DNA of 42,717 bases from an uncultured delta proteobacterium (GTDB taxonomy: Bacteria > Desulfobacterota > WTBG01 > CAIYCZ01 > CAIRTM01), in the NCBI GenBank assembly GCA_903911225.1, contig CAIWCT010000009.1:1-42717 (forward strand), in the 5' to 3' direction. The notes beneath the pieces are model-generated. The model worked only from the letters and a program-made list of their open reading frames with translations. It ran no database searches and was not told where the DNA came from. The position numbers were made by a program, and so were the translations under genes. Positions 19,991-37,441 of the stretch are shown here, piece after piece; the first letter of the stretch is position 1; each line of letters opens with the position of its first letter.

Positions 19991-20767
19991 TTACTTTACC
20001 ACTATCGTTGCAGTGCATGTGTTCACGGAAACCTCAACATCGCCGGCTGCTAAAGTAAACGGATTTACAAAAGCAATGGCAATGATGATTTTTGTGCCGA
20101 TTCTCAGCTGAATCAGGGGCTTGATAGCATCGCTGTCGAATGCAGCTTTGTCGCCTTTGACAAAAGCGGGGTCGCCGCTGCCGATAATGATAAAAGGCAT
20201 AATGGGCTGAACAAAGGCTAACAGTTTGCTGACCTTGCCGGGGATAATTTTCTTCAGCTCGCAGGTCTCGTTGTCGGGGGTGCAGTTATCCGGCGAACCG
20301 AATTTTTTGCCTGATTGCAGCCCGTAGTTATCTACCCCATCATAGCCAATATAACCAATAAAAGTATCGCATGTCAGATTAATGTCGCTTATGTGAATAC
20401 CATCCTCAGGCGAGTTCTGGTCAACCACCGCCGTACTATTATCAAGTTCATAATAGCCGACAATGGTCGGATCCATTACCACCTCAGACATCAGGATCGT
20501 TTTATTATCCCCTTCCCGTATTCCTACTGCCTGGCAGCAGAAGATGGATAGAGAGGCGGAGTGCGACATGCAGGACTCATTATCAAAACAGGGTTTAGAA
20601 AATGTTACATTATCAGTGCCATGGCTCGTGACGATAGACCACTTGCCTTCCCAGTTCTCGCAATAGGAACTATAGGGGGTACAGGTCGTGTTGGCTTGAA
20701 CAAATGTGGATTGTGCTGATATCAGCAGGGCGCTAACTGCTACTAGAAACAACATGCTTTTTTTCAT
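19991..20767 (-). CDS. Secreted hypothetical protein, paralog of 21009-21731
   Basis: Signal peptide MKKSMLFLVAVSALLISAQSTFVQA; C-term KKIIPGKVSKLLAFVQPIMPFIIIGSGDPAFVKGDKAAFDSDAIKPLIQLRIGTKIIIAIAFVNPFTLAAGDVEVSVNTCTATIVVK. Confidence 0.8.
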   Translation of the reverse strand: MKKSMLFLVAVSALLISAQSTFVQANTTCTPYSSYCENWEGKWSIVTSHGTDNVTFSKPCFDNESCMSHSASLSIFCCQAVGIREGDNKTILMSEVVMDPTIVGYYELDNSTAVVDQNSPEDGIHISDINLTCDTFIGYIGYDGVDNYGLQSGKKFGSPDNCTPDNETCELKKIIPGKVSKLLAFVQPIMPFIIIGSGDPAFVKGDKAAFDSDAIKPLIQLRIGTKIIIAIAFVNPFTLAAGDVEVSVNTCTATIVVK

Positions 20768-21008: not shown

Positions 21009-21731
21009 TTACTTTACCGTTATCGTTCCAAGGCATTTGTTCACGGAAACCTCAACATCGCCGGCTGCTAAAGCAAACGGATTTACAAAAGCAATGGCAA
21101 TGATGATTTTTTTGCCGATTCTGAGCTGAATCAGGGGCTTGATAGCGTCGCTGTCAAATGCAGCCTTGTCGCCTCTGACAAAAGCGGGGTCGCCGCTGCC
21201 GATGATGATAAATGGCATAATGGGCTGAACAAACGCCAGCAGCTTGCTGACTTTGGCGGGGATGATTTTCTGCAGGGTGCAGTTGTCATCGGAGCAGTTA
21301 TCCGGCGAACCGTTCTTTTTGCCGGACACAAGGGTTATAGGAGCTGTTACTGCGGATACGGTAAACGAGTTGCAGATGGAGACATAGTCTGAATCGGGAA
21401 TCGTTGCTGATGGGCAATTCTGGCCGCACACAACAATTGCTGCATCGTCAAGTTCATAATAGAAGTTCTGGGTCGGACCAAACTGAATTTTGCGGATCTG
21501 TACGGTTGTATTATCGGATTTTTTTCCATGGGCAATGTATTCCCAGTAATTGCCTTGCGGGCAATCAGGCTTTACGCATACATCAGTAAAGGTCACATTG
21601 TCGGTAACATTCCCGCTGTACGTTAAAACCCAGGTCCCCACCCAGTCATTGGGCAGTGGCGCAGCAAAAACCTGCCCCGCGGCAAACAGTACAGCGCATG
21701 CCGCCATCAATACTAATGCTCTTTTTTTCAT
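21009..21731 (-). CDS. Secreted hypothetical protein, paralog of 19991-20767
   Basis: Signal peptide MKKRALVLMAACAVLFAAGQVFA; C-terminal about 90 aa nearly identical to the neighbouring ORF. Confidence 0.8.
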   Translation of the reverse strand: MKKRALVLMAACAVLFAAGQVFAAPLPNDWVGTWVLTYSGNVTDNVTFTDVCVKPDCPQGNYWEYIAHGKKSDNTTVQIRKIQFGPTQNFYYELDDAAIVVCGQNCPSATIPDSDYVSICNSFTVSAVTAPITLVSGKKNGSPDNCSDDNCTLQKIIPAKVSKLLAFVQPIMPFIIIGSGDPAFVRGDKAAFDSDAIKPLIQLRIGKKIIIAIAFVNPFALAAGDVEVSVNKCLGTITVK

Positions 21732-22003: not shown

Positions 22004-22228
22004 TCAGCCCCCGCCGATAAGGGGAAAAATCGAAAGCGTGTCGTCCGGGGCAAGGCTGTAGTCTACATCCCCATGACGGCCGTTTACCAGAAGAACGCCA
22101 ACCTCGGACTCGGAAATGCCCAGTTCCTGCAGCACATAGCTGATCCGGCAGGCCTCGGGGCAGTCAAAATTTTTCTCCCCGAACCGCCCCGTGCGAAATG
22201 ATGCAAACAGTTTAACGGTAATATTCAT
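22004..22228 (-). CDS. MoaD/ThiS-family ubiquitin-like sulfur carrier
   Basis: MNITVKLFASFRTGRF...GVLLVNGRHGDVDYSLAPDDTLSIFPLIGGG ends in GG. Start chosen at 22228. Confidence 0.85.
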   Translation of the reverse strand: MNITVKLFASFRTGRFGEKNFDCPEACRISYVLQELGISESEVGVLLVNGRHGDVDYSLAPDDTLSIFPLIGGG

Positions 22229-22292
22229 AGCATGCCCAATAAAAAACGGGGGCGTGTACTGCCCCCGAAAGTTCTGCGTTTCAAAAATGGCA

Positions 22293-24020
22293 TTAAAAAT
22301 CCCAGAAGGAATCGATTTCCTTATCGGTGAAATCCCACACGGTATTGTGCGGCGGGCACAGCTCTTCAAAAAATTCAGGAAGGCGGTCATGCGTACTGTT
22401 GAAGCCCGCCTCCATGTTGAACCCTCGCTCCAGCTTTAACACGGATTTGCCCAGGGCAATCCCATCATCGCCGGTGATGGATGTGCCGTATTTTGCATTG
22501 ACCATGTCGACTATCGCGGTAAATGCTTCGGGTTTGTCAAGCACGGCAAAGGCCACAAACAGGCATAGGCCCGTGCTGTCGATAAGCGCGGTGGCGATCT
22601 GCAGATTGCGCGAAAGCTCCACCTGGCCCTCTTTTTTCAGCGGGTCGACAAAGCCGCCCACCTTGAGGATATTGGTGGCGGTGCTGTAGCCCGCGGTATG
22701 ATCGGCCCCCATGGTCGACGTGGCATAGGTGATGCCCATACCCTTGACCGAGCGTGGATCATAGGCCGGTATCGCCTGCCCTTTGACTACCGGAACCCTT
22801 GACAGGCCATAGGCTTTGCCCACAGCCGCAGTCCCTGCACCCAGCAGCCTGCCCAGATGCGATCCTGAGCCGATCTCTTTTATAAGCCGCAGCGTTCCCG
22901 GCCCGTCGCCGAAGGCGATGATGCCGGCCTCCATGGCAATGCTGACGGTGACGGCGGTTTCAATCGAGTCGATACCGATATCGTCCATCAGGTGATCGGC
23001 CTGGGCGATAAGGTCAAGATCCTCGATGCAGCAGTCGGCACCGAAACCCCAGATGGTTTCATACTCAAAGCCCGATGTCAGGTATGCGCCCTTTTTATCA
23101 TTATAGACCTGTGAGCACTGGATGATGCAGCCCGCGTGGCAGCCGTGGCTGGGCTTGCCGCTGCGCTCTACGATGGTGTCGTGCATGGTCTCGCCGCTGA
23201 TTTTGTCATGGCCGTCGAACCTGCCGGTGCGAAAATTCTCTGTGGGAAGGCCGCCGGCCTCATGCAGGATGTTGACCAGGATATTGGTGCCGTAGGTTTT
23301 CAAGCCCTGGCCCGTGACAGGGTGATCAAGCAAACATTTCGCAAAAACACGGGAGGCTTCCTTGAACTTTTCTGGCTCGGCGATGGCAACGCCCGGAGCG
23401 CCCGCATCGTCAATGGAAATATATTTGATTTTTTTCGAGCCCATCAGGGCCCCGAGGCCGCCGCGGCCGTGGCTGCGCATATTGCCCTCGGGATCGCGCA
23501 CGGAAATATTGGCAAGGGGCATCTTCATTTCACCCGCCGGCCCGATGGAAAGAACGCCCACCTTGTCGCCCCGGCGCTTGCGCACGGCCGTGATGACCTC
23601 GTAGTTGCCCTTGCCGATAAGCTCGGTCTCTTCAGCAATGGTGATGCCGTTTTTGTCGAGGTGCATGCTGTAAAAGGCGTCTTTTTGCGGCAGGCCCTCG
23701 ATAATGATAGCTTTAACGCCGAGCCGCGCCAGGCACTGGGATGACGTACCGCCCGCATTGCTTTCCTTGATGGTGCCGGTAAGCGGGCTTTTGCCGCCCG
23801 CAGACAGCCTGCCGGAATTGGCGCAGGCCGTGCCCGAGAGCATGCCCGGCGCAAAGACCAGCTTGTTGTATTTTCCCAGGGGATGGCAGCCGGGCTTGAC
23901 TTCCTTGGCAACTACTGTTGATGTGAGGGCTCTGCCGCCAAGCGTCTTCCATTCCTGCGGTACGTCTTCGGCAGAAGCTGTGAGGGTGGTCATATTGACC
24001 CGGTAGATTTTCTCAGTCAT
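22293..24020 (-). CDS. Aldehyde ferredoxin oxidoreductase family (tungsten) protein
   Basis: MTEKIYRVNMTTLTASAEDVPQEWKTLGGRALTSTVVAKEV, NSGRLSAGGKSPLTGTIKESNAGG, GRGGLGALMGSKKIKYI. Start chosen at 24020. Confidence 0.92.
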   Translation of the reverse strand: MTEKIYRVNMTTLTASAEDVPQEWKTLGGRALTSTVVAKEVKPGCHPLGKYNKLVFAPGMLSGTACANSGRLSAGGKSPLTGTIKESNAGGTSSQCLARLGVKAIIIEGLPQKDAFYSMHLDKNGITIAEETELIGKGNYEVITAVRKRRGDKVGVLSIGPAGEMKMPLANISVRDPEGNMRSHGRGGLGALMGSKKIKYISIDDAGAPGVAIAEPEKFKEASRVFAKCLLDHPVTGQGLKTYGTNILVNILHEAGGLPTENFRTGRFDGHDKISGETMHDTIVERSGKPSHGCHAGCIIQCSQVYNDKKGAYLTSGFEYETIWGFGADCCIEDLDLIAQADHLMDDIGIDSIETAVTVSIAMEAGIIAFGDGPGTLRLIKEIGSGSHLGRLLGAGTAAVGKAYGLSRVPVVKGQAIPAYDPRSVKGMGITYATSTMGADHTAGYSTATNILKVGGFVDPLKKEGQVELSRNLQIATALIDSTGLCLFVAFAVLDKPEAFTAIVDMVNAKYGTSITGDDGIALGKSVLKLERGFNMEAGFNSTHDRLPEFFEELCPPHNTVWDFTDKEIDSFWDF

Positions 24021-24361
24021 GGGGGCTCTCCTTTTGCTGTGTTTGAAATCTGCTCTTTCTCCTTTCCAAACACGGGAGGCCCGGCCGTTTCCGGCAGAAC
24101 CCATCGGCTTTTGTCCATGAGAGCATAAGCCCAGGTAGGAACAAAAAGCTCGGAGAGCTACTATGAACTATAAAAACAGAGAGGGATGTATGTCAAGCAA
24201 AAATTCGGGAGCCGGCCGGGCATCCCGTAAAATGGAGCAATAAAAAAACTAAGGTTGCATCCCGAAGCTGTAAGCGCAGCGCGAGATGTTTAGTGCGTTT
24301 TTTATTGCCCGGCCAGGCTGATTTTTTTTGTCCGGGCGGTGAAGAATTTGCGCATGGGGCC

Positions 24362-24438: not shown

Positions 24439-24879
24439 ATGAATGTTGTCGATCACGAGAGCAATTTGGGTCATATGCTGGGGCGCACGTCGCGGGCCAT
24501 GCTCAATATGCTGCAAAAAAAATTCCGGCAGGCAGGCTGCGCTATTACCGTCGAGCAGTGGACGCTGCTTATCAATATCCGCAATGCCGGCGGCCAGTCG
24601 CAGCAGCAGTTAGCCGAGCTGGTCTATCTGGATAAAACAACCGTAGCCCGCCTTGCCGCGGGGCTTGAGAAAAAGGGGCTTATCAGCCGTGAATCCGTCA
24701 GCGCCGACCGGCGGCAAAAGCGCCTGGTCATCACGTCGCGGGGCACGGCTTTGCTGGCAACCTTAAAGCCGATAGCCCTCGCGGCCCAGCAGCTGGTGCT
24801 GCAGGATATGGATCCGGAAAAGCTTAAGTGCTGCCGCGAGGTGCTGATGCGGGTGTATAACACGATCCTTGGTCAATAA
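24439..24879 (+). CDS. MarR-family transcriptional regulator
   Basis: FRQAGCAITVEQWTLLINIRNAGGQSQQQLAELVYLDKTTVARLAAGLEKKGLISRESVSADRRQKRLVITSRG. Confidence 0.93.
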   Translation: MNVVDHESNLGHMLGRTSRAMLNMLQKKFRQAGCAITVEQWTLLINIRNAGGQSQQQLAELVYLDKTTVARLAAGLEKKGLISRESVSADRRQKRLVITSRGTALLATLKPIALAAQQLVLQDMDPEKLKCCREVLMRVYNTILGQ

Positions 24880-24926: not shown

Positions 24927-26378
24927 ATGATTAAAAAAATTGCAGTTGTCATTGGCCTCATTATTGTAGTTGCGGTTGCCGGGTTGATCGGTATGTATAA
25001 ATATGAAAACCGGCGACTGAGTCCTGACTATTTTCAGTACTATAAAACGCAAGATACCGTGCCTGAAGGCAAGGTGGGCGTCTTTGTCACCGGACTCATC
25101 GTGCCGGAAACGCTGGGCACTGTCTTTTTTTATAATATATTCAACAAGATCACTGCCAACGTTATCCCGTGGCCTTTCAGGATTCTGGCAGGCATAGACA
25201 AGGGCGTCGCCCTGTTTGACCCTGAGCGCTACTGCGAATTTAGCGAATTTACGCCCAAGCGGCTGGTGGATGCCGAGGGCAGCGATCGGGATATCGACGG
25301 TGAGCCTTATATGGAGAAGTACAAGCGCGGCGAGGTTATCTGGCAGCCCCCCGCAAAAATGATTCATAAGGACAACGGCTATTTTCTTTACACAAAGCGC
25401 AAGGGCGGCATTCCGAGCCTTGCGGGAAAGATGCTCGGCAAGGCCCGGCTCTGGTACTATGACAAGGGCATTGTTCAGAAAAAGATCCCTCACGAAAAGG
25501 GCACGTTTGATATCATCAGCAAGGCTATGGAGCAAATTGAAAAAAGTCATCCCGGCATCATGTGGCGTGCTGAGTGCAGTGTGTATTATTACGAAATGAA
25601 ACAGAAGCTCTATGAGATGCTCGATGCCGGCTGCACGACCATCGTGCTTGCAGCGCCCATGGCCATTTATTCCCATTTTGAAGAATTTGATTCAGGCTTC
25701 CGCCACAGCAGCGAATATATTGAAGAGTGGGAAAAGGCGCATCCGGGTAAAAAAATTAAGATCATCATGGCACCGCAAATGGGCGACTTTAAACCCCTTC
25801 GCGAAGCATACCTGGCCATGCTCAAGGACCGCCTGGACACGCTGCCAAAAAATTCGTCGGTTGCCGTTGCCGCAACCGTGCACGGGCTTCCCTGGGACCA
25901 GCGGTCGTGGGAGGCCTGGATCGAGCTTGCGCCCGCGTATCGCGCGCCAATGCTTGATGAAATCCAAAAGCTACTGAGCAGCTACGGTTTTTCGAAGACC
26001 ACGGTCATGAGCTGCCAGGATGAGTTTGCCGACCCGATTCGTGACCCCAAGGACAAGTACCTTTCAACCAGCGAGGCCTACTGGAAAGCAATCAATGAAG
26101 GCTACGATTATGCGATCGCCCTGCCGCTGGAGTTTTTTGTGGAGAACAGCGACACCCTGTACTACCACGCCATAAAAAACTATGAGGGCTTTGCCGGGTA
26201 CAATGTCTATGAGCCCATCAATTATCCTGACTGGTCCGTGCCGTATACGCGTGAGTTTGTTCAAGGGAAAACACATATTATATATAATGGCGTGCCCGTC
26301 GGGAAGTATCAGCATTTTGTGGTCGATGCATTATATTCGGCTGTAAATTCTGTGCTCAGCCGCGGTGCAGCAAAGTAA
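24927..26378 (+). CDS. Membrane-anchored ferrochelatase/chelatase-like protein (putative)
   Basis: N-terminal TM IAVVIGLIIVVAVAGLIGMYKY. The C-terminal half carries a ferrochelatase-like pattern: VAATVHGLPW ... YRAPMLDEIQKLLSSYGF ... YLSTSEAYWKAINEGYDYAIALPLEFFVENSDTLYYHAIKNY. Confidence 0.6.
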   Translation: MIKKIAVVIGLIIVVAVAGLIGMYKYENRRLSPDYFQYYKTQDTVPEGKVGVFVTGLIVPETLGTVFFYNIFNKITANVIPWPFRILAGIDKGVALFDPERYCEFSEFTPKRLVDAEGSDRDIDGEPYMEKYKRGEVIWQPPAKMIHKDNGYFLYTKRKGGIPSLAGKMLGKARLWYYDKGIVQKKIPHEKGTFDIISKAMEQIEKSHPGIMWRAECSVYYYEMKQKLYEMLDAGCTTIVLAAPMAIYSHFEEFDSGFRHSSEYIEEWEKAHPGKKIKIIMAPQMGDFKPLREAYLAMLKDRLDTLPKNSSVAVAATVHGLPWDQRSWEAWIELAPAYRAPMLDEIQKLLSSYGFSKTTVMSCQDEFADPIRDPKDKYLSTSEAYWKAINEGYDYAIALPLEFFVENSDTLYYHAIKNYEGFAGYNVYEPINYPDWSVPYTREFVQGKTHIIYNGVPVGKYQHFVVDALYSAVNSVLSRGAAK

Positions 26379-26391
26379 GGAGAGAAAACTT

Positions 26392-27366
26392 ATGGCTGCA
26401 GCTGCAAAAAAGACGGTCTGTAAGGTTGATCCGGTTCTGTGCACCGGCTGCGGGGCCTGCGCCGAGGCATGTCCCATGCATATTCTTTTGGTCAGGGACG
26501 GCCTGAGCGCCATGACCAAAAGCCGTCTGTGCCTTGAATGCGGCTCCTGCGTGCGGGCCTGCCCGCAGCATGCCATCGCAGTTTCAACGGGCGATGGGGC
26601 TGACGCCGATGACGGGCAGCCTGCGGAGGCTGCGGATGCTCCCGTGATTTTCACCCATGTGCTTGACGCTGTTATGGCCATCGCCGCAGAGGAACTGAGC
26701 CCACGGCAGGTATTTTCTTATAACGGCATGGATGTGTCGGATCTCAACGTCATAGAGGCCGACGATGCACAGGGGTTTGCTCGCTGCTATACAGCTGACA
26801 AGCTGCTGAAAATGTATCAGTCCCGCTTCACCTTTTTCGACCAGATGTCTGTGGATGTCTTCGGGCTTGTGCCTGCTCCCGAATACGATCTGCCCATTTT
26901 CATGTTCGACTGGTCCGAGTCAAGCGACTCGATTTTTTATATCTGTGACTTTTACCCAACCGAAGACCCCGGAAGAAACCAGAACTATCTTGCCAGGTAT
27001 CTGTATGAGCCCCTTGACGAGCTGTATCAGCGCAGCAGCACGATTCCGGGGCTGCGGCCCATCCCGCTTCACTGGGTGCGCTCCCTTAATTCGCCCTACA
27101 TGATAACAGGCAATATCGAGAAGAACCCCCGCGAAAATATCGGCAGGCTCTTCAACAGCACGATCGACTATCTGCGGGCCTGGATCGGCCTGTGGAAAAA
27201 GGCCGTGCCCTGCGACCTGCAGTCGCGCCATATGCAGCTTGTGACCGAGCGGCGGCGCGTATTTCGCGATCTTTATCTTGAAAACGACCCGGGCATCGGC
27301 ACCATCAATAAATTTATCGGTGAGGAAAAGGGCGATCGCGTGCTAAAACTCATAATACCTGAATAA
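26392..27366 (+). CDS. 2x[4Fe-4S] ferredoxin domain fused to a ferredoxin-dependent bilin reductase-like domain
   Basis: CTGCGACAEACPMHILL and CLECGSCVRACPQHAIAV are [4Fe-4S] motifs. The C-terminal part LPIFMFDWSESSDSIFYICDFYPTE...YLARYLYEPLDELYQR...YLENDPGIGTINKFIGEEKGDRVLKLIIP resembles FDBR (PcyA/PebB) signatures such as ENDP-x-G-x-L-x-R-F-x-GEEW. Confidence 0.65.
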   Translation: MAAAAKKTVCKVDPVLCTGCGACAEACPMHILLVRDGLSAMTKSRLCLECGSCVRACPQHAIAVSTGDGADADDGQPAEAADAPVIFTHVLDAVMAIAAEELSPRQVFSYNGMDVSDLNVIEADDAQGFARCYTADKLLKMYQSRFTFFDQMSVDVFGLVPAPEYDLPIFMFDWSESSDSIFYICDFYPTEDPGRNQNYLARYLYEPLDELYQRSSTIPGLRPIPLHWVRSLNSPYMITGNIEKNPRENIGRLFNSTIDYLRAWIGLWKKAVPCDLQSRHMQLVTERRRVFRDLYLENDPGIGTINKFIGEEKGDRVLKLIIPE

Positions 27367-27380
27367 GAGGAGAAAGCATT

Positions 27381-28334
27381 ATGAAGACAGCGGAACAAAT
27401 CCTGTCAGGCGAAGCACTCGAGATGTTTGAAAAAATTGCAGCCATCTGGCCGCCAATTATAAGGCAGCGTAAAAAAGACAAAATCCTTCTAATGCTTTTC
27501 CTGCTTGCGCAGGCGCGAAAGATAAAGAAAGCCGATGCCGCCCTGGTTATCGAGGCCACGCGCCTGGTAGTCCCCAAATCCTATGACCCGCTGTTTCATA
27601 TGTTTGAGGACATGGAGGGTTTTAAGAAGCGCATGCTTGAGCCCTTTTTGAGCGAAGCGGCCTACAACAAAATTCCCGTGAAGGTCAGGCGCTGGCCCAA
27701 CCCCCGGCCGCGCAAAAAAGCGGCTGCCAAACAGGCGAAAACCATTCTTGCCGTCTGCGCAAGCCCGCGAGCCCGTGGCAATACCGACCTGCTCATCGAC
27801 GAGGCCCTGCGCGGTGCGGCCGACGCCGGCGCGCTAACGGAAAAGATCATGCTCCATAAAATCAAGATGGGGTACTGCATCGGGTGCCGAAAATGCAAGG
27901 AGCCGGGCTATGAAAAAATCTGCGTCATCAATGACGACATGTCGCAGGTCTATCAGAAAATTATTGATGCCGACGCGCTGATAATAGGCTTTCCTATCTA
28001 TACCGGCAGGGAGTGCGCCCAGCTCTCAACATTTTTTGATCGCTGGGACGGCTATGAGCGATACATGCTCACCTCCTGTCTCAAGCCGGGCAGGAAATCC
28101 ATGGTGATCGGCACCTGGGGCTATCCCTGTATCGACACCTATGACCATGTGATTGAAAACATTATCTCCATTCTCAATCTCCATAAGGTCGAAACAGTAG
28201 AGGCCTTGTCGGCCTGCGGGTTTGAGGGCATGCTGCATGGCCTTGACGCTGAGAGGAAAGGCGTTATCGCGCGCCATCCGAAACAGCTCAAAAAAGCCTA
28301 TGAGGCCGGGTGTGCCCTGGCCTGCAGCCGTTAG
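27381..28334 (+). CDS. NADPH-dependent FMN reductase / flavodoxin-like protein with an N-terminal extension
   Basis: ILAVCASPRARGNTDLLIDEALRGAADAGA, MGYCIGCRKCKEPGYEKICVINDDM, ADALIIGFPIYTGRECAQLSTFFDRW. Confidence 0.85.
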   Translation: MKTAEQILSGEALEMFEKIAAIWPPIIRQRKKDKILLMLFLLAQARKIKKADAALVIEATRLVVPKSYDPLFHMFEDMEGFKKRMLEPFLSEAAYNKIPVKVRRWPNPRPRKKAAAKQAKTILAVCASPRARGNTDLLIDEALRGAADAGALTEKIMLHKIKMGYCIGCRKCKEPGYEKICVINDDMSQVYQKIIDADALIIGFPIYTGRECAQLSTFFDRWDGYERYMLTSCLKPGRKSMVIGTWGYPCIDTYDHVIENIISILNLHKVETVEALSACGFEGMLHGLDAERKGVIARHPKQLKKAYEAGCALACSR

Positions 28335-32321: not shown

Positions 32322-32966
32322 ATGCCATATCCGCTTTTTCCGCTCTTTATCAGGCTTGACGGCAGAATCTGCCTTGTCGTCGGTGGCGGAAAGGTAGCCG
32401 GGCGTAAGGTCGATAGCCTGCTTGAGGCCGGTGCTGCGATAACGGTGGTGAGCCCCGAAGCGACAGCTCGGATTCAGAGGCTGGCATCGCAGGGCCGTAT
32501 AACATGGCTGCAGAAAATTTTTTCACCAGATGATCTTAACGGATCATTTCTCGTTATAGCAGCCACAGGCGATGCAGCAGTCAACGGGCATGTAGCGGCT
32601 GCGTGCAGGTCGCAGGCCATCCTCATAAACGTCGTTGATGAGCCCGGGCTGTGCGACTTCTTCCTGCCCGCAGTGCTGCGCCGGGGAGCTTTGTCCATAG
32701 CCATTGCAACCGAAGGCAAAAGCCCCCTGCTGGCCCGAAAGCTCAGGACGGAGCTTGAGCAGGTCATCACCGCGCCCTATGGCGAGTTTCTGGAACTGCT
32801 GGGGCAGCAGCGCGAACTGATTAAAAAAACCGTCCCCGATAGAGCACGGCGCGAGGCAATTTTCCGGTCGCTTGTCGATTCTGACATTTTCGACCTGATT
32901 GTGGCCGGCAAACAGGATGAAGCCCAGGAGCGCATACGCACATGCATCTCATCGCAGCAGGATTAA
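32322..32966 (+). CDS. Precorrin-2 dehydrogenase / sirohydrochlorin ferrochelatase (siroheme synthase N-domain)
   Basis: YPLFIRLDGRICLVVGGGKVAGRKVDSLLEAGAAITVVSPEAT, INVVDEPGLCDFFLPAVLRRGALSIAIATEGKSPLLARKLR. Confidence 0.93.
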   Translation: MPYPLFPLFIRLDGRICLVVGGGKVAGRKVDSLLEAGAAITVVSPEATARIQRLASQGRITWLQKIFSPDDLNGSFLVIAATGDAAVNGHVAAACRSQAILINVVDEPGLCDFFLPAVLRRGALSIAIATEGKSPLLARKLRTELEQVITAPYGEFLELLGQQRELIKKTVPDRARREAIFRSLVDSDIFDLIVAGKQDEAQERIRTCISSQQD

Positions 32967-34249
32967 ACCATAAAACAGCGCCCATCGGCATTCGCGAAAC
33001 CTGCGCCTTCTCTAAAGCCCGGCAGCGCGAAATTTACCGCACACTGCAGGCAAGCCCCGAGCTGTACGGCGCGGTGCTGGTCCTCACCTGCAACCGCACC
33101 GAGGTCTATGCTTCGGCGCAGGATGCAAGTCGCGGCTTTGCCGTGCTTGAACATGTTTTAGAAACGCATTGCGGCATGGAGCCCGATATCTTCCGTCAAT
33201 ATATATACAGGCATACGGGCCAGCAGACAGCAGCACATCTTTTTTCTGTTGCCGCGGGGCTTGACTCCATGATTCTGGGAGAGCAGCAGATACTGGGGCA
33301 GATAAAGGATGCTTACAGCGCAGCAGCAGAGGCAGATGCCGCGGACGGGCTGTTGCATATGCTGTTTCAGTCGGCCCTGCATGCGGGCAAACGCGTGCGC
33401 ACCCAGACCGGCATTGGTCGCTATCCCGTATCGGTAAGCTCTGCAGCCGTGGAGCTGTGCCGGGAGATTTTCGGCAGCCTCGAAGACAGGCAGGTGCTTG
33501 TGGTGGGCGCAGGCGATACGGCGCAGCTCGCTGTGCGGCATCTTATGGCAAACGGCGTGAGCTCCGTGATCGTTTCAAACCGCTGCTATGAGCATGCCTG
33601 CGAGCTTGCGGGCACAGCCGGCGGCAGGGCTCTGCACCTTGATGCCATACCCGGGGAGCTTGCCCATGCCGATATTGTGATCGCCTGCACAGGCGCGCCC
33701 CATGCCGTCATCCACGGCCAGGCCTGCAGCCAGTCGCTCAAAAGCCGCGGCGGCCGGGAGATAGCGCTTATTGATATTGCCATGCCCCGGGATATCGACC
33801 CGTCATTTGCCGATATACCGGGCGTATTTTTGTATGACATCGATGACCTTCAGAACGTTATCGACAAAACCTACCGCCAGCGGCTGCAGGCTGCTCATCA
33901 GGCCCGGGGCATTATCGAGCAGGAGTCGCGCCAGTTCATGAAAAAAATCTCCGCACTTCCGGTAGTGCCGGTCATATTTGCCTTGAAGCAGCAGGCCGAA
34001 CAGATTAAGCAGCAGGAGCTGCAGCAGGCGCTGGCAAAACTGGGACATCTTTCAGAGCATGACCGGCAGGCCGTGGCAGGCCTTGCGCAGGCAATTGTGG
34101 GGCGGCTGCTGCACGAGCCGGTTGCCTGTCTCAAAGAGCAGGCGGCAGGCCCCGACGGCCATGAGTATGCGCGCCTGATAAAAGAGCTTTTCAACCTTTG
34201 CCTGGATGATGACGATGCGAACCATACGGCTCGGAACCCGCGGCAGTAA
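32942..34249 (+). CDS. hemA: Glutamyl-tRNA reductase
   Basis: MHLIAAGLNHKTAPIGIRE, LVLTCNRTEVYA, VAAGLDSMILGEQQILGQIKDAYSAA, DIAMPRDIDPSFADIPGVFLYDIDDL. Confidence 0.97.
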   Translation: MHLIAAGLNHKTAPIGIRETCAFSKARQREIYRTLQASPELYGAVLVLTCNRTEVYASAQDASRGFAVLEHVLETHCGMEPDIFRQYIYRHTGQQTAAHLFSVAAGLDSMILGEQQILGQIKDAYSAAAEADAADGLLHMLFQSALHAGKRVRTQTGIGRYPVSVSSAAVELCREIFGSLEDRQVLVVGAGDTAQLAVRHLMANGVSSVIVSNRCYEHACELAGTAGGRALHLDAIPGELAHADIVIACTGAPHAVIHGQACSQSLKSRGGREIALIDIAMPRDIDPSFADIPGVFLYDIDDLQNVIDKTYRQRLQAAHQARGIIEQESRQFMKKISALPVVPVIFALKQQAEQIKQQELQQALAKLGHLSEHDRQAVAGLAQAIVGRLLHEPVACLKEQAAGPDGHEYARLIKELFNLCLDDDDANHTARNPRQ

Positions 34250-35168
34250 ACTGGCGCTGCGACAGGCCGAGCTTGCAGCCGCTGCTCTGAAAGCAGCCGT
34301 ACCGGGCATTGCCGCTGAGCTGTTTATCATCAAAACTACGGGCGATAAAATTCTCGACACTCCGCTCTCGGAAATCGGCGACAAAGGCCTGTTCACCAAA
34401 GAGATCGAGCTCGCACTGCTTGATAATTCCATCGATATGGCAGTGCATAGCTGCAAGGATCTGCCCTCCGAGCTTGCACCGGGGCTTTTCATCGCAGCGG
34501 TGCTGCCCCGCGAAAACCCCTGCGACGTGCTGCTGAGCAGTGCGGGCTACAGCCTTGAAACCCTTCCCCATGCTGCACGCATCGGTACGTCGAGCCTGCG
34601 GCGAACTGCCCAGCTTAAAGCTTTGCGGCCTGATTTTGTTGTGCTGCCGCTGCGTGGCAATGTTGAAACACGCATTCGCAAAATGCAGACTGAGGGGCTC
34701 GACGCCATAGTGCTGGCCTATGCGGGCATTGCACGGCTGGGGCTTATGGAGAAGGTAACGCAGCAGCTCTCTGCCGATCTCATGCTGCCATCACCCGGCC
34801 AGGGCGCCATCGCCATAGAGGCGCGCACTGGTGATGCTGAAATTTTAGAGCTTCTGTCAAAAATAAATGATGCAAAAACAAACTGTGAAGTACGCGCCGA
34901 ACGTTCTTTTCTGCTGCGCCTGCATGGCGGGTGTCAGGTTCCGGTTGGATGTCTGGCCAATGCAGATCGTGATGCCATCAGCATTACGGGCATGATCGCA
35001 TCTCTTGATGGGCGGCAGGTGTTTCGAGATACCATTGAAGGCAATGCCCGCGATGCCGAAATGTTGGGCTTGCAGCTTGCCGAGCGTCTGCTTGCCGCCG
35101 GGGCGAATGAAATATTAAATATTGTAGGGGCAGGCCCCCGTGCCTGCCCGGATACACATTATGTATGA
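34206..35168 (+). CDS. hemC: Porphobilinogen deaminase (hydroxymethylbilane synthase) with a REP-derived C-terminal tail
   Basis: MRTIRLGTRGSKLALRQAEL, DKGLFTKEIELALLDNSIDMAVHSCKDLPSEL, LRLHGGCQVPVGCLA. Start may be 34215. Confidence 0.96.
   Translation: MMTMRTIRLGTRGSKLALRQAELAAAALKAAVPGIAAELFIIKTTGDKILDTPLSEIGDKGLFTKEIELALLDNSIDMAVHSCKDLPSELAPGLFIAAVLPRENPCDVLLSSAGYSLETLPHAARIGTSSLRRTAQLKALRPDFVVLPLRGNVETRIRKMQTEGLDAIVLAYAGIARLGLMEKVTQQLSADLMLPSPGQGAIAIEARTGDAEILELLSKINDAKTNCEVRAERSFLLRLHGGCQVPVGCLANADRDAISITGMIASLDGRQVFRDTIEGNARDAEMLGLQLAERLLAAGANEILNIVGAGPRACPDTHYV
35124..35149 (+). repeat. REP element overlapping the hemC 3' end
   Basis: GTAGGGGCAGGCCCCCGTGCCTGCCC, near-identical to the copy at 35757-35783. 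Confidence 0.85.
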
Positions 35169-35754
35169 TCCCGACACGCATCACCGCCAGTCAATCCGTT
35201 TGAAGCAATATGATTATTCGCAGGCAGGCGCATATTTTGTGACGATCTGCGCACAGAACCGGCAATGTTTGTTTGGCGGGATAAACAATGGCACCATGAT
35301 GAATAATGCCGCAGGAGAGATGATTTCGACCATATGGCATGAAATCCCGGAATATTATCCCGGCATCGGCATTGACGCATTTCAAATTATGCCCAACCAT
35401 ATTCATTGCATCATTATCGTAAGGGCAACCCCCCGTGGGTGCCCTGATTTTAATTCATCAAAAGGGCCGCCACGGGGGGTTGTATCAGAAAAGGGGCAGG
35501 CACAGGGGCCTGCCCCTACGGTTGGTTTGTCATTGCCGGACATTGTTCACCGGTTTAAAACCATGACGACAAAAAAATACACAGATGGTGTTAAAGATAA
35601 TGGATGGCAGGCGTTCAAACGCAGATTGTGGCAACGCAATTATTATGAACACGTCATGCGCGATGACGAGGATTTAAACCGCACACGGGAATATGTTTCC
35701 AGTAATCCCTTGCGCTGGGCAGATGATCCTGATTATATGGTGTCAGATGTATGA
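35161..35754 (+). CDS. REP-associated tyrosine transposase (RAYT, Y1_Tnp family)
   Basis: YDYSQAGAYFVTICAQNRQCLFGGI, PNHIHCIIIV (HUH-type HxH), LWQRNYYEHVMRDDEDLNRTREYVSSNPLRW. ATG 35161 overlaps the hemC stop (ATGTATGA). Confidence 0.92.
   Translation: MYDPDTHHRQSIRLKQYDYSQAGAYFVTICAQNRQCLFGGINNGTMMNNAAGEMISTIWHEIPEYYPGIGIDAFQIMPNHIHCIIIVRATPRGCPDFNSSKGPPRGVVSEKGQAQGPAPTVGLSLPDIVHRFKTMTTKKYTDGVKDNGWQAFKRRLWQRNYYEHVMRDDEDLNRTREYVSSNPLRWADDPDYMVSDV
35419..35519. repeat. REP-like cluster inside the RAYT coding sequence
   Basis: GTAAGGGCAACCCCCCGTGGGTGCCC (35419-35444), inverted GGGCCGCCACGGGGGGTTG (about 35464-35482), inverted GGGGCAGGCACAGGGGCCTGCCCCTAC (35493-35519). Confidence 0.8.
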
Positions 35755-35756
35755 AC

Positions 35757-35857
35757 GTAGGGGCAGGCCCCCGTGCCTGCCCCAATGAAAATATATCAAA
35801 AGGGTAACCACGGGGGGGGGCATCAAAAAGTGGGCAACCACAGGGGGTTGCCCCTAC
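35757..35857. repeat. REP cluster immediately downstream of the RAYT
   Basis: GTAGGGGCAGGCCCCCGTGCCTGCCCC (35757-35783), partial GGGTAACCACGGGGGGGGG (about 35802-35820), inverted GGGCAACCACAGGGGGTTGCCCCTAC (35832-35857). Confidence 0.85.
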
Positions 35858-35914
35858 AATTAAATTATAAATACCCGGTACATAAATCGGTCGAACGAAT
35901 AAATTAAGGCATTC

Positions 35915-37441
35915 ATGAAAAACGGGAAAGTCTATCTTGTTGGTGCAGGGCCGGGTGATCCGGGTCTTTTGACCTTGAAGGGCAAGCGGGTTCTTGAACA
36001 GGCCGATGTGGTGGTCTATGACCGCCTTGTTGGGCCGCATATTCTTGCTTTGGCTCCGTCGCAGGCGGAGCGCATCTATGCGGGCAAGCAGTCTGCCGAC
36101 CACACGCTGTCGCAGGATAAAATAAATGAGCTGCTTGTAGGGAAATGCGCCGAGGGCAGGGTTGTTGTGCGTCTCAAAGGCGGCGATCCGTTTCTGTTTG
36201 GCCGGGGTGGTGAGGAGGCACTATATCTTGCCGAGCATGGCTGCGCATTTGAAATAGTGCCCGGCGTTACCTCAGCTATTGCAGCGCCTGCTTATGCCGG
36301 TATCCCCGTTACCCACCGTGATATTGCAACAAGCGTCGCCTTTATAACCGGCCATGAAAAGCCGGGCAAGGCTGAAAGCTCCATCCGCTGGCATGAGCTG
36401 GCTCACGGCATTGATACGCTTGTTTTTCTAATGGGTATTGAAAATCTGCCTGCCATTACGCAAAATTTGATTGCCGCCGGGCGGGTCGCCGATACGCCTG
36501 CCGCTCTTGTTCGCTACGGCACCCTGCCCGAGCAGGAGGTGCTCACGGCAACACTGGGCACCATCGTTCAGAAATCCTGCGAGCATGGTTTCAAGCCGCC
36601 TGCTGTTTTGATTGTTGGTGATGTGGTCAAGCTGCACGAAAAGCTTGCCTGGGTGGAGAAGCTGCTGCTCTGGGGCAGGCGCATTGTGGTAACACGGCCT
36701 TCGGAGCAGTCAGCCGATTTTATTGCATCGCTTCAGGCCCTGGGCGCGTCAGTGCTTGAGATGCCGGTAATCGAAATAAAGCCTGCAACTGACCAGAGCG
36801 AACTGCACAGGGCTTTTGAAAATCTTGCGGCCTATGCATGGCTTATATTCACGAGCCGCAACGGGGTTGATATTTTCTTCGACGAGCTGTTTGCACAAGG
36901 TTTTGATGTGCGAAGCCTGCACAGTCTCAGCCTGTGCGCCATAGGCCCGGCAACGGCAGACCGCCTGCGTGCTAAAGGTCTTATTGCCGATGTGGTTCCC
37001 GAGGACTTCCGCGCCGAAGGATTGCTTGAGGCTTTACGAGAAAAAGTGCAGGCCGGGCAGAAGGTGCTTTTGCCCCGTGCCGCAGGCAGCCGCGAGGTGC
37101 TGCCCGAGGGCTTGCGCAGTCTTGGGGCGCAGGTTGATGAAATCAATCTCTACGCATCCGTGCCGCCTGAGGGCATTGATGCTGAAACGCTGCAGGTCAT
37201 TGTTTCAAGCACCATCGATCTCATAACATTTACCAGCTCATCAACGGTGGCTAATTTTGTCGGGCTTGTGGGCAAAGACAGGGCAGCACAGCTTGCAGCG
37301 CGCATCCCCGCCGCCTGCATCGGCCCGATAACGTCCGCAACAGCGCGGGAGAATGGCTTCACTGTTGCCGTCGAGGCAGTAGCCTATACCATGGACGGAC
37401 TTCTTGACGCGATACAAAAACACCTGCTGCGCTCAGTCTGA
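35915..37441 (+). CDS. Uroporphyrinogen-III C-methyltransferase / uroporphyrinogen-III synthase fusion (CobA-HemD)
   Basis: GKVYLVGAGPGDPGLLTLKGKRVLEQADVVVYDRLV, VRLKGGDPFLFGRGGEEA, then HemD-like GRRIVVTRPSEQSADFIASLQALGASVLEMPVIEI. Confidence 0.96.
   Translation: MKNGKVYLVGAGPGDPGLLTLKGKRVLEQADVVVYDRLVGPHILALAPSQAERIYAGKQSADHTLSQDKINELLVGKCAEGRVVVRLKGGDPFLFGRGGEEALYLAEHGCAFEIVPGVTSAIAAPAYAGIPVTHRDIATSVAFITGHEKPGKAESSIRWHELAHGIDTLVFLMGIENLPAITQNLIAAGRVADTPAALVRYGTLPEQEVLTATLGTIVQKSCEHGFKPPAVLIVGDVVKLHEKLAWVEKLLLWGRRIVVTRPSEQSADFIASLQALGASVLEMPVIEIKPATDQSELHRAFENLAAYAWLIFTSRNGVDIFFDELFAQGFDVRSLHSLSLCAIGPATADRLRAKGLIADVVPEDFRAEGLLEALREKVQAGQKVLLPRAAGSREVLPEGLRSLGAQVDEINLYASVPPEGIDAETLQVIVSSTIDLITFTSSSTVANFVGLVGKDRAAQLAARIPAACIGPITSATARENGFTVAVEAVAYTMDGLLDAIQKHLLRSV

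Follow-up and report, generated by a model that had tools for sequence, protein, structure and literature searches.

Ferredoxin–FDBR fusion gene and its operon

The window, as we call the whole stretch of 42,717 nucleotides that was analysed, contains a forward-strand open reading frame of 324 aa at 26392..27366. It begins with an ATG at 26392, preceded by an AGGAG-type ribosome site, and ends with a stop codon at 27364-27366. The gene lies in a tight run of genes on the same strand, with gaps of 13 bp on its 5′ side and 14 bp on its 3′ side. The genes of this operon, and the domains of the encoded fusion of a ferredoxin with a ferredoxin-dependent bilin reductase (FDBR), are as follows.

24439..24879, + strand: MarR-family regulator, first gene of the operon (Pfam MarR, 5e-15; 73% identity with its counterpart at locus L018)
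24927..26378, + strand: predicted ferrochelatase-fold (HemH-like) protein with an N-terminal membrane anchor (weak PF00762 match; Foldseek; 13 bp 5′ of the fusion gene)
26392..27366, + strand: ferredoxin–FDBR fusion protein (Pfam Fer4 and Fe_bilin_red, AlphaFold2, Foldseek, invariant D173/D186/D299)
26422..26583, + strand: 2[4Fe-4S] ferredoxin-type domain of the fusion (Pfam Fer4 families; eight Cys invariant in nine fusions)
26653..27354, + strand: FDBR (Fe_bilin_red) domain of the fusion (Pfam, PDB alignment, AlphaFold2, Foldseek)
27381..28334, + strand: N-terminal domain without assignment followed by a flavodoxin-like NADPH-dependent FMN reductase, last gene of the operon (Pfam FMN_red, 2.9e-15)

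The fusion protein comprises two [4Fe-4S] sites (aa ~8-67), a flexible linker (aa 71-77) and the FDBR domain (aa ~88-321). The initial annotation had described two CxxCxxCxxxCP motifs at the N-terminus and quoted several peptides, including YLENDPGIGTINKFIGEEKG; both motifs and the quoted peptides are present in the open reading frame. The cluster cysteines are C17/C20/C23/C27 and C47/C50/C53/C57. According to Pfam, 4Fe-4S dicluster families match residues 11-64, with eight of eight cysteines, and Fe_bilin_red matches residues 130-318 (2.8e-12; 47.2 bits against a curated cut-off of 31), in agreement with the earlier assignment to the FDBR family. The RCCR family PF06405 scored below threshold (15.4 bits against 24.9). 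When the FDBR part was searched alone against the PDB, tomato phytochromobilin synthase was the sole convincing match (5e-11).

An AlphaFold2 model of the fusion, based on a 74-sequence alignment, had a mean pLDDT of 90.4, with values below 50 only at linker residues 71-77. The comparison with PcyA- and RCCR-type structures that had been proposed for this protein was performed with Foldseek, which returned phytochromobilin synthase (HY2; 1.4e-13), PcyA, RCCR, PebB and PebA, each with a probability of 1.00. The N-terminal part resembled the ferredoxin-type subunit of formylmethanofuran dehydrogenase. Neither a fold other than the alpha/beta/alpha sandwich of FDBRs nor a confident match to an unrelated family was found. 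The protein is a true FDBR-fold domain fused to a 2[4Fe-4S] ferredoxin, and it keeps the three conserved Asp positions described below.

The gene order of MarR regulator, ferrochelatase-fold protein, fusion and FMN reductase is kept at L018, in another genus, at 73-79% identity. There, the FMN reductase, which in the window starts 14 bp after the fusion gene, occupies the same place and is 79% identical. A ferrochelatase-fold gene also lies two genes upstream of a split ferredoxin/FDBR gene pair at L107, in the other family of the order.

The product of 24927-26378 is remote from HemH in sequence, scoring 17.8 bits against PF00762 (cut-off 27) and 15.9 bits against HemH (cut-off 124.6). The top Foldseek matches of its model, which is of low confidence overall, were all ferrochelatases (1.6e-7), followed by periplasmic CbiK. 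The protein resembles the ferrochelatase/CbiK superfamily, including the periplasmic CbiK of Desulfovibrio, in its structural matches and in its His and ETL/DTL motifs, retained as VHGLP (H319) and an ETL-like SDTL (D409). By contrast with that superfamily, it is membrane-anchored, contains inserts and falls below the HemH cut-offs.

We recognized two chelatase-like groups, for which profile searches of the PDB by sequence yielded nothing useful. Group A2 was settled by its predicted fold. Group A3 gave no more than a weak PF00762 hint, and we do not call it a chelatase. Members of the two groups occurred within 12 kb of an FDBR gene in 8/30 and 8/20 cases, against 1.7 and 1.1 expected, in a test that counts related copies as independent, which makes its P values optimistic, and in which the chelatase link of the second group is weak. 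At L107:9967-11314, a chelatase-like gene is divided between two frames.

Several other features of the window were recorded. Oriented divergently to the operon are an aldehyde:ferredoxin oxidoreductase (AFOR) gene and a ThiS/MoaD-like gene (22004-24104); other FDBRs repeatedly have AFOR genes nearby, but the fusion orthologue in L018 has none next to it. Downstream and outside the operon, at 32322-37441, lie genes of early tetrapyrrole biosynthesis, for the N part of a sirohaem synthase, HemA, HemC and a fused methylase-HemD (CobA-HemD); HemC and HemD are separated by an ORF of an IS200-like transposase family at 35140. Upstream, 19991-20767 and 21009-21731 encode tandem signal-bearing proteins that are 52% identical, have almost identical C-terminal halves and match no Pfam family.

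Active-site positions and relation to known FDBRs

FDBRs bind their substrate without a cofactor and reduce it by single-electron transfers from ferredoxin, while protons are handled by Asp and His residues. We located the corresponding positions of the fusion by counting residues on the PDB alignment. The columns of PcyA D105 and H88 are occupied by D173 and V156, respectively, and the position of Glu76, placed by ungapped spacing from P168, is not Glu. Of the PcyA triad Glu76/His88/Asp105, Asp105 alone is kept. A second Asp, D186, occupies the position of HY2 D116, and D299 that of the Asp in the C-terminal DPG motif (HY2 D256/PebS D206); the residue numbers HY2 D116, HY2 D256 and PebS D206 are those we take to apply to the aligned Asp positions. 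HY2 D116 and PcyA D105 fall in separate alignment columns, both of which hold Asp in the fusion.

All three residues, D173, D186 and D299, are invariant in nine of nine full-length fusions. Among 110 of the order's paralogues, D, E and N occupy the D186 column in 86, 13 and 11 proteins, respectively; 95 have D at the D299 column, and the D173 column is less uniform. Asn at the D186 position characterizes the subfamilies at L009, L019, L025, L026, L027, L028, L029, L030 and L031, whose chemistry is possibly altered as a result.

The Asn (11/110) and Glu (13/110) substitutions in sister subfamilies could be taken to mean that the FDBR domain is a non-catalytic module that binds tetrapyrroles or senses redox state. 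For the fusion clade this is very improbable: the three Asp are invariant, and a passive binder makes little sense with an electron donor covalently attached.

The FDBR family, and FDBRs of non-photosynthetic bacteria, were already known (PMC10151467). With the plant and cyanobacterial enzymes HY2, PcyA, PebA and PebB, the fusion shares the fold (Foldseek E down to 1e-13) and the PxF..D, D.xP and DPG motifs, at ~16-21% identity in the structural alignment. Those enzymes work with a separate ferredoxin and have a heme oxygenase alongside, whereas two attached [4Fe-4S] clusters and Val at the PcyA H88 position are the fusion's own. RCCR also shares the fold (Foldseek, 4e-12) and is likewise a reductase in tetrapyrrole breakdown; unlike the fusion, it is of plant origin and depends on an oxygenase and a separate ferredoxin to feed it, and the match to PF06405 is sub-threshold.

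A closer parallel in setting is provided by the pre-PcyA FDBRs (Rockwell, Martin and Lagarias 2023, PMC10151467), whose hosts are non-photosynthetic and include some deltaproteobacteria (Myxococcales). The active pre-2 and pre-3 FDBRs of heterotrophs keep D105 and have lost the H88 position, as in the fusion. The clusters of pre-1 and pre-3 also encode a separate Fe-S protein, and pre-PcyA clusters are typically accompanied by heme oxygenase, V4R proteins and a bilin-binding globin (PMC10151467). By contrast, the order studied here has the Fe-S module fused and 7-17 paralogues per genome, with no heme oxygenase or phycobilisome-type globin found.

Distribution of the fusion and expansion of FDBRs in the order

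The initial annotation had proposed a survey for other 4Fe4S–FDBR fusions. The architecture recurs in the home genome, at L012, and at seven full-length loci in six other genomes of the family. The nine fusions are 42-75% identical and every cluster Cys is invariant, which argues that the fusion is not a chance product. A further copy, 87% identical, is cut off by a contig end. When 85,000 species genomes of bacteria and archaea were scanned, a search that reaches close relatives only, the fusion was confined to metagenome-assembled genomes of the group. Spread on plasmids or viruses was rejected, as plasmid and viral contigs gave no match.

At L107, the ferredoxin and the FDBR are encoded separately: a gap of 22 bp lies between the two genes, both of which have a start of their own, and the second has its own ribosome-site-like AGGAAAGGGG. 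In the tree, the L107 FDBR domain groups with the fusion clade with full support. Moreover, FDBR loci totalling 1.18 Mb contain just 20 small 2[4Fe-4S] ORFs, 9 of which have an FDBR gene on the same strand no more than 900 bp away. The split gene pair and these adjoining ferredoxin genes support, at the level of gene arrangement, the N-terminal domain as the probable electron donor of the FDBR domain.

The expansion extends well beyond the fusion. The home genome encodes eight Fe_bilin_red proteins, and within the order 10 genomes out of 11 have 7-17 FDBR paralogues each; no protein above the Fe_bilin_red cut-off was detected in ~288 genomes sampled from elsewhere in the phylum. The paralogues form ~15 supported subfamilies, several of them common to both families of the order, indicating that the expansion is old and not a binning artefact. 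The exception, G005, belongs to the same family as the home genome, carries no FDBR and yet holds a chelatase-like gene. In-frame stops interrupt two FDBR copies, L089 (G004:C171:1700-2368) and L078 (G001:C78:5910-6515); these, like the two-frame gene of L107, reflect either decay or assembly error.

One FDBR type, found at L011:6465-9947 with orthologues in ten genomes (L032, L033, L037, L039, L049 and others), is anchored to the membrane at its N-terminus and has Glu in the D186 column. Its genes often adjoin those for a geranylgeranyl-reductase-like flavoprotein and a signal-bearing Flavodoxin_5 protein and are divergent from DUF1302/MMPL/YCF48-like genes. This type is possibly periplasmic and fed by a flavodoxin.

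We searched the 11 genomes of the order for the usual partners of bilin reductases. Canonical heme oxygenase (PF01126) was found in 0/11 genomes, as were phycobilisome proteins and phycobilisome-type globins (PF00502), a profile that could miss divergent globins. No phytochrome PHY domain and no photosystem reaction centre were detected in these genomes, and phytochrome and phycobiliprotein were accordingly rejected as bilin users. COX1 was represented by a single fragment, in the FDBR-less G005. The host had been described as non-phototrophic and apparently anaerobic, a description with which these results agree.

Radical SAM proteins of the HutW/ChuW type were rejected as ring openers, since no match in the order exceeded the NCBIfam cut-off (best 206 bits against 400). 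The HutW profile also matched in 14/14 control genomes at E <= 0.001, one of them over the cut-off, and the sub-threshold matches therefore look like ordinary HemN/HemW-type proteins. With neither canonical heme oxygenase nor HutW above cut-off, the order has no known route to biliverdin or anaerobilin. Of the earlier proposal of a self-sufficient bilin reductase, then, the fusion, the fold and family and the setting are supported, and a bilin is one candidate substrate.

These results bear on the reading of the protein as a classical bilin reductase, which follows the initial annotation. It narrows the reading favoured below to a linear tetrapyrrole substrate, such as biliverdin, that is scavenged from the surroundings or made by an unrecognised heme-opening enzyme. 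The nearest solved relative, phytochromobilin synthase, and the pre-2/pre-3-like pairing of Asp at D105 with loss of His88 are consistent with it. Nevertheless, none of heme oxygenase, HutW above cut-off, phytochrome, phycobiliprotein and the partners expected from pre-PcyA enzymes was found in the order, which makes a bilin substrate doubtful.

In the literature available without subscription, we came across no account of a 2[4Fe-4S]–FDBR fusion occurring in nature, nor of anaerobes that have an expanded FDBR set and no heme oxygenase. Work on the benzene-activation cluster of a Desulfobacterota clade contained nothing on a ferredoxin–FDBR fusion.

A predicted oxygen-independent tetrapyrrole-processing network

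Further FDBR genes of the order occur in a dual-FDBR cluster at L085:228-9711, L119:2722-10919, L118:362-3713 and L083:2185-8089, some on incomplete contigs; L118 and L083 hold it only in part. Its order is MarR regulator, His-rich membrane protein, heavy-metal P-ATPase, FDBR, small unknown protein, ferredoxin and second FDBR, followed by another ferredoxin, a BchE-like B12-radical-SAM protein and a porin. The B12-radical-SAM protein matched BchE best (212-215 bits, below the equivalog cut-off of 481), with HpnJ as the runner-up (154-158 bits). In a flavin-reductase neighbour, the match to PCP_red (protochlorophyllide reductase) was weak (18.8 bits against 32.5) and was discounted as evidence.

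FDBR genes of the order also have recurrent neighbours of a generic redox or hydrophobic-compound type: SDR, GlcD/HdrD-like, OYE, AFOR and alpha/beta hydrolase proteins, MarR/TetR regulators and DUF1302/DUF1329/MMPL transport proteins. Such neighbours, and 7-17 paralogues per genome in ~15 subfamilies, are what would be expected if the FDBR fold had been recruited as a general ferredoxin-driven reductase for hydrophobic non-tetrapyrroles (aromatics, steroids, polyenes), with the paralogues reflecting catabolic range. We consider this unlikely, however, given that the nearest conserved partner in the fusion clade is a ferrochelatase-fold gene, that BchE-like and metal-export genes accompany other FDBRs, and that the fusions retain the three Asp positions.

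In our assessment, the fusion is probably a self-sufficient ferredoxin-dependent tetrapyrrole reductase acting in an oxygen-independent tetrapyrrole-processing network. In favour of this reading we counted the family and fold, the conserved fusion, the split gene pair and adjoining ferredoxin genes, the Asp positions, the order-confined expansion and the operon kept across genera, together with the ferrochelatase fold of the neighbour, the chelatase enrichment, the dual-FDBR cluster and the failure to find phytochrome, phycobiliprotein or reaction centre. Against it we counted that no known ring-opening enzyme was found, the generic redox and hydrophobic-compound neighbours, the partner's distance from HemH in sequence and its low-confidence model, a BchE likeness below the equivalog cut-off and the treatment of related copies as independent in the enrichment test. 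The number of paralogues per genome and the ferrochelatase-fold gene in the operon extend the range of candidate substrates to tetrapyrroles of all kinds, closed rings included.

In the proposed mechanism, low-potential electrons from the anaerobe's metabolism would enter the N-terminal clusters and pass singly, within the molecule, to a tetrapyrrole in the cofactor-free FDBR pocket, where D173, D186 and D299 would aid protonation of radical intermediates. The membrane-anchored ferrochelatase-fold neighbour may insert or remove the tetrapyrrole metal, the flavodoxin-like FMN reductase may supply or exchange electrons, and the MarR regulator of the operon may sense the substrate.

When the paralogue set is considered with the BchE-like B12-radical-SAM protein and the metal-exporting ATPase that adjoin other FDBRs, it suggests breakdown or remodelling of porphyrin-type pigments by an oxygen-independent pathway, as opposed to synthesis of bilins for light sensing or light harvesting. 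More tentatively, this uncultured anaerobic order of Thermodesulfobacteriota might degrade heme, chlorophyll or metalloporphyrins independently of oxygen, with BchE-like and chelatase-like proteins opening or demetallating the ring and the FDBR-fold family, some of its members with ferredoxin built in, reducing it successively; we regard this fuller scheme as speculative.

FDBRs are usually viewed as makers of light-harvesting and light-sensing bilins that act downstream of heme oxygenase, an enzyme that requires oxygen. This view is broken by an anaerobic order with 7-17 FDBR paralogues per genome, in which no canonical heme oxygenase or known bilin-using protein was found, and the FDBR set of the order bears on the origin of the fold before oxygenic photosynthesis. 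The natural ferredoxin–FDBR fusion also offers, ready-made in a single protein, a system in which to study electron delivery in cofactor-free radical enzymes. A new anaerobic tetrapyrrole pathway is a possibility. If the substrates are chlorophyll or heme derivatives, these would be genes for the oxygen-free breakdown of pigments in lakes and sediments, and degradation of this sort would constitute a new kind of anaerobic pigment catabolism.
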